A DNA stretch of 56,591 bases, from positions 1 through 56,591 of the forward strand of contig CALXKJ010000014.1 of NCBI GenBank assembly GCA_944388955.1. The letters are read 5' to 3'. Each line of letters starts with the position of its first letter. The first letter of the stretch is position 1. The DNA comes from an uncultured Spirochaetaceae bacterium (GTDB lineage: Bacteria > Spirochaetota > Spirochaetia > Sphaerochaetales > Sphaerochaetaceae). The notes below the pieces were generated by a model. That model was given only the letters and a program-made list of their open reading frames with translations, did not search any database and was not told the origin of the DNA. This document shows, piece after piece, positions 45,647 to 50,804 of the stretch. Both the position numbers and the translations under genes were made by a program.

Positions 45647-45757
45647 ACCATTTTTAGCAGATTGATGTTCTTCTGTTCACATTAAAATCAAGATAGTTTC
45701 ATTTTGTGTTACAGATTGTGCTTTATTTGTCCTAATTACTGATATGCAATCATTTTA

Positions 45758-45786
45758 TTGACTTATGTGAAAACATCGTATAGTCT
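45758..45786 (+). promoter_or_regulatory. Promoter of the hydrogenase operon
   Basis: TTGACT (45758-45763), 17-bp spacer, TAGTCT (45781-45786), 23 bases before the first gene. The spacer contains the small palindrome ATGT-GAAA-ACAT (45765-45776), a possible operator. It does not match the Rex or FNR consensus well. Confidence 0.6.
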
Positions 45787-45809: not shown

Positions 45810-46091
45810 ATGGCGGAAAAGGAGAAGCTCAAGGTTGAGCTATGCATGGGGTCAAGCTGCTTTGCGAGAGGCAACAGCGGCAATCTCATTGGCCTTGAGG
45901 AATATATCGAGCACAATGGTCTTGCTGACAGAATAGAGCTTGAAGGGCATCTCTGTCTTGGCAAATGCAGCACAGGCCCGCATCTGAAGATTGGCGATAA
46001 AGAATATTCAGGAATAGCTGATCCTGATGCTGCGGCAGATCTTATCAGAGCGGCACTGGAGGAGCGTGATGCAGAATCCGATATACACTGA
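45810..46091 (+). CDS. Thioredoxin-like [2Fe-2S] ferredoxin (hydrogenase-associated, first)
   Basis: A 93-aa protein of the NuoE/HydC C-terminal type. The four ligand cysteines are in CMGSSC (Cys-x4-Cys) and CLGKC (Cys-x3-Cys), followed by GPHLKIGDKEYSGIADPDAA (usual P-x-x-x-x-x-Y/G region). It probably shuttles electrons to or from the hydrogenases encoded next. GAGGAG precedes the ATG. First gene of the operon; it overlaps the sensory hydrogenase start by 23 bases. Confidence 0.88.
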   Translation: MAEKEKLKVELCMGSSCFARGNSGNLIGLEEYIEHNGLADRIELEGHLCLGKCSTGPHLKIGDKEYSGIADPDAAADLIRAALEERDAESDIH

Positions 46092-47859
46092 AGTAACCAG
46101 CTGTCGTGATTGCTATAAGTGCGTCCGCTCTTGCCCTGTCAAGGCAATACAGATAAAAGACGGACATGCGATGATCATCAAGGACAGGTGCCTGTATTGT
46201 GGCCGATGTGTTCATGTATGCCCGAATAGCGCGAAGAAAGTCAGGAATGATGTCGATAGAGTGAAGCTTGCAATGCAGTCTGGGCGAAGAGTCATATGCT
46301 CTCTTGCCCCGTCATATGCCTCGGAATTCGGAGGACGGGAGAAGGAGCTTCTCACTGCTTTGAAGAAGCTTGGTTTCTCCGCTATTTCTGAGACAGCTAT
46401 AGGCGCTGCTCTTGTCACGGAGGCGCTCGATATCTACGCTGCAGAGCATGGTGGACATTGTCCTTTCATCAGTACCGCATGTCCTTCTGCAGTCGCGCTT
46501 GTCAGGAAATATTTCCCTGATGAAGCTGGAAAGCTTGCTCCAGTCCCGTCGCCGCTGCAGGCACATTCAGCATATCTCAGGCATATTTACAATGATGATT
46601 TTGTCATAGTCTTCATCGGACCATGTATCGCCAAAAAGAGCGAGGCTGACACAACTCCCGGCTATCCAGATCTCGCAATAACATTCAAGGAGCTCCGGGT
46701 ATGGCTTCAGGAGGAAGGCATATCGCTTGATGATATAGAGGCTGAGGATGTTGATTTCATTCCTTGCAAAGCAGGCATTTCCACAATCTATCCGATAGAA
46801 GGCGGTCAGATTGCCTCTTCCTCTATCTGGGGAGGAAGCTCTGTCAGATGCGACGCACTTGCATTCTCAGGTATGGAGCAGCTCATGTCCGCACTCGATG
46901 AGAAGGAAGTCCCGCTTGAGTATTTCATGGAGCTTCTCGCATGCGAGGGAGGATGCATTAACGGACCTGGTTCAGACCAGAGCATCTCAATGGCTGCCCG
47001 CAAAGGCAAGGCTTCCAGCCATACACTGAAACGCCTTGATGAACAGGATCTCTTCAAAGGCGATGAGGAATTTGCCAGGAAGCTTCTTGCAGAAGGTTAT
47101 GGAATACTCCATACAGATGCCCCCGCAGCTGAGACTGGCTTCAGGAAAGCACACAGCGAGGATGAGATAAAGAGGGCACTTGTGGAGCTTGGAAAGCTCA
47201 CTAAGGCGGATGAGCTTAATTGTGGTGGCTGTGGCTACAATACATGCCGCGATATGGCTATCGCATATCTTGATGGCATGGCCGAAGTCGAGATGTGCGT
47301 GACGAAGATGAGGAAGGAAGCTGAGAGCAAGGTCGATGTTCTTCTCAGAACGATACCTATGGGTGTTGTCATCGTCGACTCCGACTTGCAGATTGCAGAT
47401 TGCAACAAGAACTTCCTTGAGTTCTTCGGCGATATGGAGGAAGGCTTCATCGATCAGAGCATCCTGCAGATGGTGAAAGGACTTCCGCTTGAGCGTTTTG
47501 TGCCTTTTGCTGACAAGTTCCGTGACCAGTTCTATCTTTCGCATCCAGGGCAGTACAGAGTCCACTTCAAAGATAAGTATCTCCGTGTCACATTCTTCCT
47601 CGTGGAATCGAAGAGACTTCTTGGCGCGATGTTCGAGGATATAACAAGTCCGACTATCAAGCGTGAGACTGTCGTGAAGAAAGCTGAGGACGTTATCCAG
47701 AAGTCATTGGAGACAGTACAGCAGATAGCCTCGCTTCTTGGAGAGAATGCTGCTGAAACTGAAATCATGCTCAATTCCCTCATTGATGCATTCAGTGTTC
47801 ATGGGACTGGGGAAGGCGAGAGTGACTTCCGCGAGGATGAAGGCGGTGATCTGGCATGA
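46069..47859 (+). CDS. hydS: Sensory (group C, HydS-type) [FeFe]-hydrogenase with PAS domain
   Basis: About 596 aa. Order: two [4Fe-4S] ferredoxin motifs (Cys12-51), H-cluster domain (about 75-300), a further Fe-S motif CGGCGYNTC (Cys385, 388, 393, with Cys410), and a C-terminal PAS domain (about 420-535: LLRTIPMGVVIVDSDLQIADCNKNFLEFFG). H-cluster motifs: L1 TACPSA (136-141), L2 IGPCIAKK (Cys186), L3 LACEGGCINGPG (Cys292, Cys296). The proton-transfer Cys of TSCCP is Ala137, as described for sensory HydS of Thermotoga. No signalling output domain is attached; the following SpoIIE phosphatase is the probable partner. ATG 46069 has GGAGG 7 nt upstream. Confidence 0.88.
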   Translation: MQNPIYTEVTSCRDCYKCVRSCPVKAIQIKDGHAMIIKDRCLYCGRCVHVCPNSAKKVRNDVDRVKLAMQSGRRVICSLAPSYASEFGGREKELLTALKKLGFSAISETAIGAALVTEALDIYAAEHGGHCPFISTACPSAVALVRKYFPDEAGKLAPVPSPLQAHSAYLRHIYNDDFVIVFIGPCIAKKSEADTTPGYPDLAITFKELRVWLQEEGISLDDIEAEDVDFIPCKAGISTIYPIEGGQIASSSIWGGSSVRCDALAFSGMEQLMSALDEKEVPLEYFMELLACEGGCINGPGSDQSISMAARKGKASSHTLKRLDEQDLFKGDEEFARKLLAEGYGILHTDAPAAETGFRKAHSEDEIKRALVELGKLTKADELNCGGCGYNTCRDMAIAYLDGMAEVEMCVTKMRKEAESKVDVLLRTIPMGVVIVDSDLQIADCNKNFLEFFGDMEEGFIDQSILQMVKGLPLERFVPFADKFRDQFYLSHPGQYRVHFKDKYLRVTFFLVESKRLLGAMFEDITSPTIKRETVVKKAEDVIQKSLETVQQIASLLGENAAETEIMLNSLIDAFSVHGTGEGESDFREDEGGDLA

Positions 47860-49052
47860 ATAATATCTTCATAGATGTGGATTACGCACAGATTTACAAG
47901 CATGGACAGAAAATCGGCGGTGATGTCTTCCTTCTTTCAAGGAATCCGGAGAACAATCAGATTGTATCTACACTCTCCGATGGTCTTGGAAGCGGGGTAA
48001 AAGCGAATGTTCTCGCATCTCTTACCGCGCATATGGCTCACCGCATGTCTTTCTCGCCCATCGATCTCAGCCACTCTGCGAAGATAATCATGGATACGCT
48101 TCCTGTCTGCAAGGAGCGTAAGATAAGCTATTCAACCTTCACTATTGCGGATATACGTTATGGTGAAGACAAGGAGAATATCTCTGTCAATCTCGTTGAA
48201 TATGACAACCCGCCATCTCTGCGTTTCTCAGGCTCTACGCCTGTAAGCTGGGAGAGAACGCGCACGGAGCTTCAGAGAGAAGGCGCATTCAAGAAAGAGG
48301 TTATCGCTCACTCATCATTCGACCTTGAAATCGGAGATAGACTTGTCATGTTCTCCGATGGCGTCACACAGTCAGGACTGGGTAAAAGCCTGCCGCTTGG
48401 CTGGAGGCTTGATGGAGTGAGGAAGTTCATCAGCGAGCAGATTGAGAAGGATCCAGATATCTCATCTCGTGAGCTTTCGCGGACTATCGTGCAGAAAGCT
48501 TACTCTCTGGACGGACTTGCCTCCAAGGATGATATAACATGCGTTGTGGTGTATATCAGGAAGCCAAGGCGTACGCTTATCGTTACAGGTCCACCGTTCA
48601 CGAAGGAAGCGGACGCTATCCTTGGAGAGAAGATTGCAGCATTCAATGGCCGCAAGATCGTATCAGGTGGAACCACAGCCCAGATTGTTGCGAGACTCTT
48701 CGGGAAGAAGCTTACGCTTGATCTCTCCTCTTGGTCGAAGGATGTGCCTCCTGCTTCGAAGATGGAGGGAATCGATCTGGTGACTGAAGGGATGCTGACG
48801 CTTTCCCGTGTCGCGACTATACTTGAGAAAAGGCTTAATCCCGCAGAGCTTCCGAATGACCCTGCAAGGAAATTCGTGGAGATACTGCTCGATAGCGATC
48901 AGGTATTCTTCCTTGTCGGGACGAAGATAAATGAGGCTCATCAGGATCCGAACATCCCTGTTGAGATAGGAATAAGAAGGACTATCATCGGGCGATTGAG
49001 AAATGCGCTTGAGGAAATATATCTGAAGGAAACTTCACAGGAATATCTATAG
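47856..49052 (+). CDS. SpoIIE-type PP2C serine phosphatase
   Basis: A 398-aa protein, soluble. The N-terminal half has the SpoIIE/PP2C core: KIGGDVFLLSR (metal-binding GD), STLSDGLGSGVKANVLASLTA, FSTFTIADIRY-like segment, LEIGDRLVMFSDGVTQSG and SKDDITCVVVYIR, with the expected Asp residues. The last about 150 residues (from RRTLIVTGPPFTKEAD) are less clear. It overlaps hydS by 4 bases. SpoIIE-like phosphatases commonly follow group C hydrogenase genes; it may relay the H2 signal by dephosphorylating an anti-sigma antagonist or another regulator, but the target is unknown. Confidence 0.85.
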   Translation: MNNIFIDVDYAQIYKHGQKIGGDVFLLSRNPENNQIVSTLSDGLGSGVKANVLASLTAHMAHRMSFSPIDLSHSAKIIMDTLPVCKERKISYSTFTIADIRYGEDKENISVNLVEYDNPPSLRFSGSTPVSWERTRTELQREGAFKKEVIAHSSFDLEIGDRLVMFSDGVTQSGLGKSLPLGWRLDGVRKFISEQIEKDPDISSRELSRTIVQKAYSLDGLASKDDITCVVVYIRKPRRTLIVTGPPFTKEADAILGEKIAAFNGRKIVSGGTTAQIVARLFGKKLTLDLSSWSKDVPPASKMEGIDLVTEGMLTLSRVATILEKRLNPAELPNDPARKFVEILLDSDQVFFLVGTKINEAHQDPNIPVEIGIRRTIIGRLRNALEEIYLKETSQEYL

Positions 49053-49065
49053 GAGGATATTTATT

Positions 49066-49326
49066 ATGAAGAAGGCAAAAGTAAAAGTAAGGATCTGCCT
49101 TGGAACAGCCTGCTTTGTGCAGGGTGGAGCTGATCTCCTGCTCTACAACGATTTTGTCGATCCTGCAATTCTTGCAGAGTGTGAGATTGAAGGCTGTTCA
49201 TGCCTCAATGAATGCAGAGTAGGCAATGGAAGTGCACCTTATGTGTCTATTAACGATAAGATATACAGCGGAGTGAATCAGGATATGTTCTGCAAGCTCC
49301 TCGCGGAGGCTGTGAAGAATGCTTGA
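49066..49326 (+). CDS. Thioredoxin-like [2Fe-2S] ferredoxin (hydrogenase-associated, second)
   Basis: An 86-aa paralogue of the first gene of the operon: CLGTAC (Cys-x4-Cys) and CSCLNEC, then APYVSINDKIYSGVNQDMF. Electron carrier for the catalytic hydrogenase whose gene it overlaps by 8 bases. AGGAGG precedes the ATG. Confidence 0.85.
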   Translation: MKKAKVKVRICLGTACFVQGGADLLLYNDFVDPAILAECEIEGCSCLNECRVGNGSAPYVSINDKIYSGVNQDMFCKLLAEAVKNA

Positions 49327-50773
49327 GCTTAATAATCAGTACACACTCATGAAGAGGAAAATCGACACTGAGGTACTTAAGTGCTTCTTTGACGATACTC
49401 TTGTAGAGAAAGCTGATAAGCTCCCGTATGAAATCATCCCCAAGAACCGTGTTCCTTTCAGATGCTGCATCTATAAGGAAAGGGCTATGGTCCGCTATAG
49501 GATAATGGCGCTTTCAGGCATCGATATCGAACGCGATGATGATGAGGAGAAACCGCTTTCTCTCTATATGCAGGAAGTGCTTGATGAGGATAAACCGCCT
49601 CTTCCGCTTCTGACGACCATCACCACAGGTTGTTCCGGATGTCCGAAATCACAGTATAGGATCAGCGATGGCTGCCGTGGCTGTTTTGCGCGTCCATGTA
49701 TGTCAAACTGCCCTAAAGATGCGATAGTATTCATCAATGGACAGGCTCATATCCAGGAAGACAGGTGTATCAGATGTGGAAAGTGCATGGAGGTATGTCC
49801 ATTCCATGCTGTCGTGCATATCCCTGTACCCTGCGAGGAAGCATGCCCTGTTGATGCAGTAACGAAGAATGAGGAAGGCTTTGTCGAGATTGAGCACGAC
49901 AAGTGCATCGGATGCGGCAAGTGCGTGCGCTCATGCCCATTTGGCGCTATCGTTGAGCGCTCTGGTCTCTTCCCTGTTCTCAAGATGCTCAAGAGAGGCG
50001 AGAAAGTCGTTGCCATGATTGCACCGGCTATCGAAGGTCAGTTCCCCGGCACGCTTGAACAGCTCAAGGAAGCTATTAAGAAGGCTGGCTTCTATGATGT
50101 GGTTGAAGTCGCTGAAGGTGCGGAAGTCACTTCTGTTAATGAGGCAAAGGAGCTTTATAACAAGATTTCCGAGAATGAGGGCTTCATGACAACATCGTGC
50201 TGCCCGGCATACATGGAGCTTGTTGACAAGCATATACCTTATCTCAAGACCAGACGCTCCGATTCCCTTTCTCCGATGGGCTATATCGCCAAGATCGTCA
50301 GAGAGAGATATCCTGAATGCAAGAGCGTCTTCATCGGGCCATGCCTTGCAAAGAAAGTGGAAGTAGCGAAGAAATACCGCGATGAAATCGATGGTGTCAT
50401 GACTTTTGCAGAGCTTGCATCGCTATTTGTGGCAAAGAATATCGATGTGCGTGAAATGGCTGGGGAAAGTCTGGGAGACACAGCTTCATTCGAGGATTGC
50501 CGTGAGTTCGCGGTCTCTACAGGTGTCGCTGCATGTGTGCTCAGAAGATTCCAGGAGGAAGGCAAGACTCCTCGTATCCTGCCTATCAACGGTCTTGACA
50601 AGAAGACTGTCAGACTGATGAAGACGTGGGAGAAGAGAGCGCCTGAAGCCGACCTTGTCGAAGTCATGGCATGTGAAGGCGGATGCCTTGCAGGCCCTGG
50701 AACAATCGTAAAACCGGCACTTGCATTGAAGCTCAGGAATGCAGCAAAGACTGCAAAGCCAGCTGCTAAGTAA
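49319..50773 (+). CDS. [FeFe]-hydrogenase, catalytic, group B-like
   Basis: A 484-aa iron hydrogenase: 2 H+ + 2 e- to H2 or the reverse. The unusual N-terminal part (1-100) is followed by a Cys-rich region TTGCSGCPKSQYRISDGCRGC and [4Fe-4S] motifs CIRCGKCMEVCP (150-161) and CIGCGKCVRSCP (196-207). The H-cluster motifs are complete: TTSCCPAY (Cys294, Cys295), IGPCLAKK (Cys341) and MACEGGCLAGPG (Cys451, Cys455). The proton-transfer Cys is present, unlike in HydS. The architecture suits the monomeric group B. The HydEFG maturases are not in the window. Ends the operon; a strong terminator follows. Confidence 0.88.
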   Translation: MLELNNQYTLMKRKIDTEVLKCFFDDTLVEKADKLPYEIIPKNRVPFRCCIYKERAMVRYRIMALSGIDIERDDDEEKPLSLYMQEVLDEDKPPLPLLTTITTGCSGCPKSQYRISDGCRGCFARPCMSNCPKDAIVFINGQAHIQEDRCIRCGKCMEVCPFHAVVHIPVPCEEACPVDAVTKNEEGFVEIEHDKCIGCGKCVRSCPFGAIVERSGLFPVLKMLKRGEKVVAMIAPAIEGQFPGTLEQLKEAIKKAGFYDVVEVAEGAEVTSVNEAKELYNKISENEGFMTTSCCPAYMELVDKHIPYLKTRRSDSLSPMGYIAKIVRERYPECKSVFIGPCLAKKVEVAKKYRDEIDGVMTFAELASLFVAKNIDVREMAGESLGDTASFEDCREFAVSTGVAACVLRRFQEEGKTPRILPINGLDKKTVRLMKTWEKRAPEADLVEVMACEGGCLAGPGTIVKPALALKLRNAAKTAKPAAK

Positions 50774-50777
50774 AATC

Positions 50778-50804
50778 ATCCGGTCAGAAATGGCCGGATT
50801 TTTT
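50778..50804 (+). terminator. Rho-independent terminator of the hydrogenase operon
   Basis: ATCCGGTC and GGCCGGAT (8 bp, one G-U) around AGAAAT, then TTTTT. Confidence 0.88.

Follow-up and report, generated by a model that had tools for sequence, protein, structure and literature searches.

What does a bacterium do with a hydrogenase that looks like a sensor, when the next gene encodes a protein phosphatase? We address this question for a five-gene operon in an uncultured gut Spirochaetaceae bacterium (GenBank assembly GCA_944388955.1, contig CALXKJ010000014.1); the whole stretch of 56,591 nucleotides (nt) that was analysed is called the window below. The operon encodes a small thioredoxin-like [2Fe-2S] protein, the PAS-bearing [FeFe] protein HydS, a SpoIIE-type PP2C phosphatase, a second [2Fe-2S] protein and a group B1 [FeFe]-hydrogenase (Table 1). 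The question is of practical interest. H2 partial pressure directs fermentation in the gut and in syntrophic consortia, and ethanol yields in Clostridia rise when the homologous sensor gene is deleted. A sequence-only reading of the window had proposed that these genes form a complete H2 sensing and response unit, in which the sensor passes its state to the phosphatase. We conclude that this is probably an hfs-type H2-sensing operon, in which HydS gates the adjacent phosphatase through a helix at its tail and the phosphatase acts on a phosphorylated partner encoded elsewhere.

A putative sensor and its phosphatase

HydS matches the Pfam families Fe_hyd_lg_C, Fer4, FeS (PF04060, 34.5 bits) and PAS, the last slightly under the Pfam cut-offs (PAS_9, 24.7 against 27 bits; PAS_8, 21.3 against 21.8 bits). 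Its C-terminal FeS domain is followed by the PAS domain, which is the architecture of group C, and it fails the NCBIfam model of group B1 (174.6 bits, cut-off 450). In a tree of 95 H-domains, where bifurcating HydA proteins form the group A clade and no named group C reference is included, the window's HydS clusters with other phosphatase-linked HydS proteins, outside the group A clade (support 100) and the group B clade (88). Neither hydrogenase of the operon has lost a cubane ligand, and the equivalents of the cubane-ligating cysteines C300, C355, C499 and C503 are invariant in 35 of 35 phosphatase-linked HydS proteins. At the three second-sphere positions discussed for TmHydS of Thermotoga maritima (PMC10055695), the window's HydS departs from the C, M and M of prototypical enzymes by the sensory-type substitutions C299A, M353G and M497L, and the proton-transfer cysteine is replaced by alanine in 26 of the same 35 proteins. 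The tree placement and these substitutions support the earlier suggestion that the PAS-bearing enzyme is sensory, not catalytic, and we regard it as a group C-type HydS and a putative sensor.

The structure model of the phosphatase (predicted local distance difference test, pLDDT, 89.4) has the SpoIIE phosphatase domain 5mqh as its best PDB match (E = 1.3e-14), and the catalytic domain is nearest in structure to SpoIIE, RsbU and RsbX. The PP2C metal residues (D23, D42, G43, D168, D225 and D226) are invariant in 111 of 111 sequences. No other SpoIIE protein was found in the genome. Residues 235-398 form a separate alpha/beta domain, confidently predicted (pLDDT 91.8), with near-invariant GGTT, EGxxT and GxxxN motifs, for which a profile search of solved structures and Pfam returned no significant match. 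Structural comparison gave two weak resemblances, one to methylglyoxal synthase (best Foldseek match, E = 7.5e-3) and one to a chain of the formyltransferase/hydrolase complex (Fhc), related to formylmethanofuran dehydrogenase (best VIA match, Z 9.6, root-mean-square deviation 3.0, 116 residues). As both may reflect a common alpha/beta arrangement alone, we claim no family for this domain, which may bind a ligand.

The pairing of these two genes is widely kept. Full-length orthologues of the phosphatase (>100 bits) occur in about 40 of 296 Spirochaetota genomes, and 39 of the 40 carriers have an [FeFe]-hydrogenase. HydS lies immediately 5' of the phosphatase in 89 of the 93 loci with enough flanking sequence, 46 of these have a group B enzyme downstream, and 25 include a bifurcating-type flavoprotein subunit. 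These counts argue that HydS and the phosphatase are the constant core of the system and that the catalytic hydrogenase is exchangeable. Three Bacteroidales phosphatase loci have no HydS at the locus (L162, L165 and L167), and the same genomes carry HydS elsewhere. Among the loci that we fetched, several spirochaete families share the full order of [2Fe-2S], HydS, phosphatase, [2Fe-2S] and group B genes, which is found as well in metagenome bins of Riflebacteria, Bacteroidota, Kiritimatiellota (Pontiellaceae) and Alphaproteobacteria. The sequence-only reading had staked itself on finding this order in relatives; since it recurs, it is far from chance. The other outcome that would have told against that reading, a tree position of the PAS-bearing enzyme among the catalytic hydrogenases, was likewise looked for and not seen.

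Two loci elaborate on this arrangement. In a Bacteroidales genome a second phosphatase of the same family (L198:1133-2323), preceded by a gene for 328 amino acids, sits some 11 kb away from a HydS operon of the normal kind, and in a Riflebacteria locus (L132) hydC-hydB-hydA is followed by two HydS-phosphatase pairs that flank a group B gene.

How might HydS reach its neighbour? Each of the 101 phosphatase-adjacent HydS proteins has a C-terminal helix around VQxIAxLLGENAAETE, which is absent from 14 HydS-like proteins of Bacteroidales hydABC operons. Pfam scans of two of these helix-less proteins showed HisKA and HATPase domains at the C-terminus, and a response-regulator gene is adjacent. A third form, at spirochaete locus L091, carries an RsbW-like HATPase_c_2 domain N-terminal to the [FeFe] domain. 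The HydS sensor core thus occurs with three phospho-signalling outputs, and the helix accompanies the phosphatase. Because the helix is present in the phosphatase-linked proteins and absent from those of the histidine-kinase type, it is the likely phosphatase contact, and this co-segregation is the best evidence here that HydS would signal to the phosphatase through it.

The alternative outputs have their own neighbourhoods. At two loci (L161:925-3359 and L156:813-3235) an [FeFe] sensor fused to HisKA-HATPase adjoins a response regulator and is divergent from a HydS-phosphatase operon, which places two types of presumed H2 sensor side by side. The spirochaete hydABC cluster at L091:8464-12025 holds in a row genes for a DRTGG-like protein, the fusion of an RsbW-like ATPase with a HydS-like [FeFe]/FeS protein, a PHP-like protein and a GHKL protein.

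On these parts, their conserved order and residues and the distribution of the helix, all read from sequence, we build the following mechanism; its signal (H2), the docking step, the way in which control runs and the substrate are inferred. HydS would read H2 or a low-potential redox state with its non-prototypical [FeFe] domain. This state would travel via the FeS and PAS domains to the C-terminal helix, which would dock on the phosphatase and gate it. The phosphatase would dephosphorylate a partner, encoded elsewhere, that carries phosphate on Ser/Thr, and in this way would tune the operon's group B hydrogenase and related fermentation genes.

Candidates for the other half of a possible switch

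Which protein could the phosphatase act on? The five genes of the operon include no target, kinase or transcription factor gene. Furthermore, the search for STAS and anti-sigma partners that the sequence-only reading had recommended came back negative. There is no match to STAS (PF01740) in the 95.6% complete genome, although the same search was positive in ten control genomes; it did not extend to STAS_2 (PF13466). Nor did the genome yield a Hanks kinase or, above the cut-off, an RsbW/SpoIIAB-type kinase (HATPase_c_2). Two weak HATPase_c_2 matches, to a sensor-kinase-like protein and to the end of an ABC-transporter ATPase-like protein, were rejected. The proposed unit of H2 sensor and phosphatase thus keeps its support in the sensory-type HydS, the conserved order and the co-segregating helix, but it can no longer be called complete.

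A candidate is found in the genome's bifurcating-hydrogenase operon, where a gene for a small GHKL ATPase lies between hydC and hydD (L004:8155-8646; HATPase_c, 30.3 bits). Its product has 163 amino acids and is fast-evolving (53% identity to the nearest congener), and the N, G1 and G2 boxes are kept in ten members of the family, with N14, D40, G42, G63 and G65 invariant. In the spirochaete genome G292 the GHKL gene stands directly 3' of the group B gene (HydB1) of the HydS operon (locus L075), and the two hydABC clusters seen at L205 are without it. In two Bacteroidales genomes (L198 and L199) it follows the HydS operon together with DRTGG and PHP genes. Among genera with [FeFe] enzymes, tallied by hand and counting only GHKL matches above about 60 bits, 19 have both the phosphatase and the GHKL protein, 8 the phosphatase only, 19 the GHKL protein only and 37 neither (odds ratio 4.6, p = 0.002, uncorrected for deeper phylogeny). 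Two other queries were set aside: a single GHKL sequence was too divergent (18 of 296 genomes), and the alignment below about 60 bits was too permissive (283 of 296 genomes, mostly much longer frames resembling ordinary histidine kinases). We put the HydE-type GHKL ATPase forward, tentatively, as the most likely counterpart of the phosphatase, ahead of a STAS/anti-sigma switch.

In the same bifurcating operon, the HydD-like protein (L004:8639-9019) has no cysteine at all; its homologue at L091 keeps the cysteine motifs.

Several points weigh against the H2-sensing mechanism and this candidate. H2 does not reduce the C-terminal cluster of TamHydS, a group D sensor (PMC13104023), so an electron relay to the PAS domain is conjectural. 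The genera that hold one alone (19 with the GHKL protein, 8 with a phosphatase and no strong GHKL match) indicate that the two are not obligate partners, and the genus tally is uncorrected for deeper relatedness. The HydE homologue of Acetobacterium woodii is without a known substrate (PMC3315566).

A more specific proposal is that HydS and the phosphatase make up, together with the HydE-type GHKL ATPase, a new phospho-switch that does without STAS and sigma factors. The GHKL ATPase, with DRTGG and PHP proteins where present, would phosphorylate a regulator linked to hydrogenase. The phosphatase, gated by H2 and modulated by the presumed ligand domain at its C-terminus, would reverse this. As a whole, we consider this scheme doubtful.

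It is unlikely that HydS is an auxiliary redox enzyme and not a sensor, with the genes making up one electron-transfer complex whose assembly or activity the phosphatase regulates directly. Each hydrogenase gene is indeed preceded by a [2Fe-2S] gene of its own, as in NuoE-type electron transfer, and HfsABC has been suggested to act as a hydrogenase without HfsD (PMC13277313). However, the proton-transfer cysteine is missing in most HydS proteins, in several lineages the locus pairs HydS with the phosphatase but has neither a group B nor a NuoF-type bifurcating hydrogenase, and the same HydS core is elsewhere fused to a histidine kinase.

Still less probable is that the phosphatase acts on serine-phosphorylated HPr (P-Ser-HPr), opposing HPr kinase and tying H2 to carbon catabolite control. 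HPr kinase (213 bits) is the sole recognised protein serine kinase found in the genome, and PP2C phosphatases are able to dephosphorylate P-Ser-HPr. That said, HPr kinase is itself a phosphorylase, which makes a second enzyme unnecessary, and no linkage of hfs-type operons to HPr kinase was seen in the examined loci, without a systematic search. Classical partner switching, in which the phosphatase would dephosphorylate a STAS anti-anti-sigma factor and so cause an RsbW-like kinase to let go of its sigma factor, in the manner of SpoIIE and RsbU, is very unlikely because of the negative searches for STAS (PF01740), Hanks kinases and, above cut-off, RsbW-type proteins, despite the resemblance of the catalytic domain to SpoIIE, RsbU and RsbX and the RsbW-like domain fused to an [FeFe] sensor at L091.

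Operon layout and neighbouring elements

Returning to the operon as a whole, a check of the open reading frames confirmed five genes on the plus strand, in one direction, from 45810 to 50773. They overlap or nearly touch, as had been described, with gaps in order of about -23, -4, +13 and -8 nt (counting HydS from the ATG at 46069). The block AATCATTTTATTGACT-N15-TATAGTC 5' of the first gene is kept in an alignment of seven congeners, across which TTTTATTGACT-N15-TATAGTC is invariant and most flanking sequence varies. This conservation supports a single promoter, also part of the earlier account, better than a generic promoter scan of the window, which did not flag the promoter of the first gene; a terminator-like hairpin follows the last gene.

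The degenerate palindrome further upstream is near-perfect in several relatives (TGTGA-N6-TCACA) and is a possible operator of the Rex or CRP/FNR type. Close relatives have, immediately 5' of the operon, a second gene for a Rex repressor (L056, L057, L058, L060, L097, L099-L101, L103-L105 and L109), 33-38% identical to the hydABC-linked Rex at the loci where this was measured. The window's genome has a single Rex, divergent from hydC.

The last gene passes the NCBIfam group B1 model TIGR04105 over residues 6-465 (515.9 bits, cut-off 450) and matches Fe_hyd_lg_C with 181.6 bits. Its H-cluster motifs are intact, C299 and M497 are retained, and it falls in the group B clade of the tree, in agreement with its first description as group B-like. 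The small protein encoded before each hydrogenase matches 2Fe-2S_thioredx (cut-off 24.8 bits), again as described, and going by gene order each would serve the adjacent hydrogenase.

Table 1. Features of the operon and its flanks, in window coordinates
Feature	Position	Strand	Support
Degenerate palindrome ATGTTC-N6-TCACAT	45665..45682	.	Comparison with relatives
Conserved promoter block (TTGACT, 15-17 nt, TATAGT/TAGTCT)	45748..45786	+	Alignment of seven congeners
Gene 1, thioredoxin-like [2Fe-2S] protein (HfsA position)	45810..46091	+	2Fe-2S_thioredx PF01257, 30.0 bits; conserved before HydS in relatives
Gene 2, HydS/HfsB-type putative sensory [FeFe]-hydrogenase (two [4Fe-4S], H-domain, FeS domain, PAS, C-terminal helix)	46069..47859	+	
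HydS C-terminal helix, proposed phosphatase contact	47659..47793	+	In 101/101 phosphatase-adjacent HydS; absent from 14 of histidine-kinase type
Gene 3, SpoIIE-type PP2C phosphatase (HfsC position)	47856..49052	+	PF07228, 48.6 bits (cut-off 25)
Phosphatase C-terminal alpha/beta domain (GGTT, EGxxT, GxxxN)	48558..49049	+	Alignment, model
Gene 4, second thioredoxin-like [2Fe-2S] protein	49066..49326	+	PF01257, 25.5 bits; conserved between phosphatase and group B enzyme
Gene 5, group B1 [FeFe]-hydrogenase (HfsD position)	49319..50773	+	TIGR04105; H-cluster motifs; group B clade
Terminator-like hairpin with T-tail, after last gene	50778..50799	+	Sequence

Comparison with known systems

The phosphatase has the PP2C fold and metal residues in common with SpoIIE and RsbU of Bacillus. 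It differs in its extra C-terminal alpha/beta domain, where the Bacillus proteins have N-terminal membrane or RsbT-binding parts, and in that the PF01740 search found no STAS substrate in its genome. HydE of A. woodii (Awo_c27000) is similar to the ATP-binding domains of histidine kinases and possibly has a role in assembly or signalling (PMC3315566). Like the GHKL protein of our genome, to which we liken it by description, it is a small ATP-binding protein of a hydABC operon and not an enzyme subunit.

HydS itself resembles TmHydS of Thermotoga maritima, a group C protein (PMC10055695), in its C-terminal FeS and PAS domains, in alanine at the proton-transfer cysteine and in glycine at M353; the M497 position is leucine in HydS and serine in TmHydS. 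The HydS cluster of Ruminococcus albus (Zheng 2014; PMC6776011) likewise has a group C HydS with PAS and a Ser/Thr phosphatase adjoining a regulated hydrogenase. There the partner is a group A1 enzyme with an alcohol/aldehyde dehydrogenase, whereas in the window it is a group B1 enzyme. In R. albus this cluster reacts to the level of H2: its expression falls strongly when an H2 consumer is grown alongside (PMC6776011).

The closest relative is hfsABCD of Thermoanaerobacterium saccharolyticum (Shaw 2009), and the window's operon is of this type plus one extra [2Fe-2S] gene, an architecture already published (PMC5707799, PMC11837493, PMC8924675). Going by the published description of the order, not by Thermoanaerobacterium sequences, both have a small first gene, a sensory PAS protein (HfsB), a serine phosphatase (HfsC) and a ferredoxin-linked hydrogenase (HfsD, termed group B in PMC8924675). 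The window differs in its second [2Fe-2S] gene, between phosphatase and hydrogenase, and in belonging to another phylum. In T. saccharolyticum, ethanol yield and adhE expression go up when hfsA or hfsB is deleted, but not when hfsC or hfsD is (PMC5707799). In T. thermosaccharolyticum, hfsD given to a strain without hfsABCD mimics the loss of hfsB (PMC11837493), which suggests that HfsB restrains hfsD output, possibly via HfsC. To this known architecture our analysis adds the co-segregation of the HydS tail helix, a phosphatase C-terminal domain without a Pfam family and the missing STAS, Hanks and RsbW components. Together, the helix, the domain and the missing components narrow the question of the signalling route to a few proteins, which makes it directly testable.

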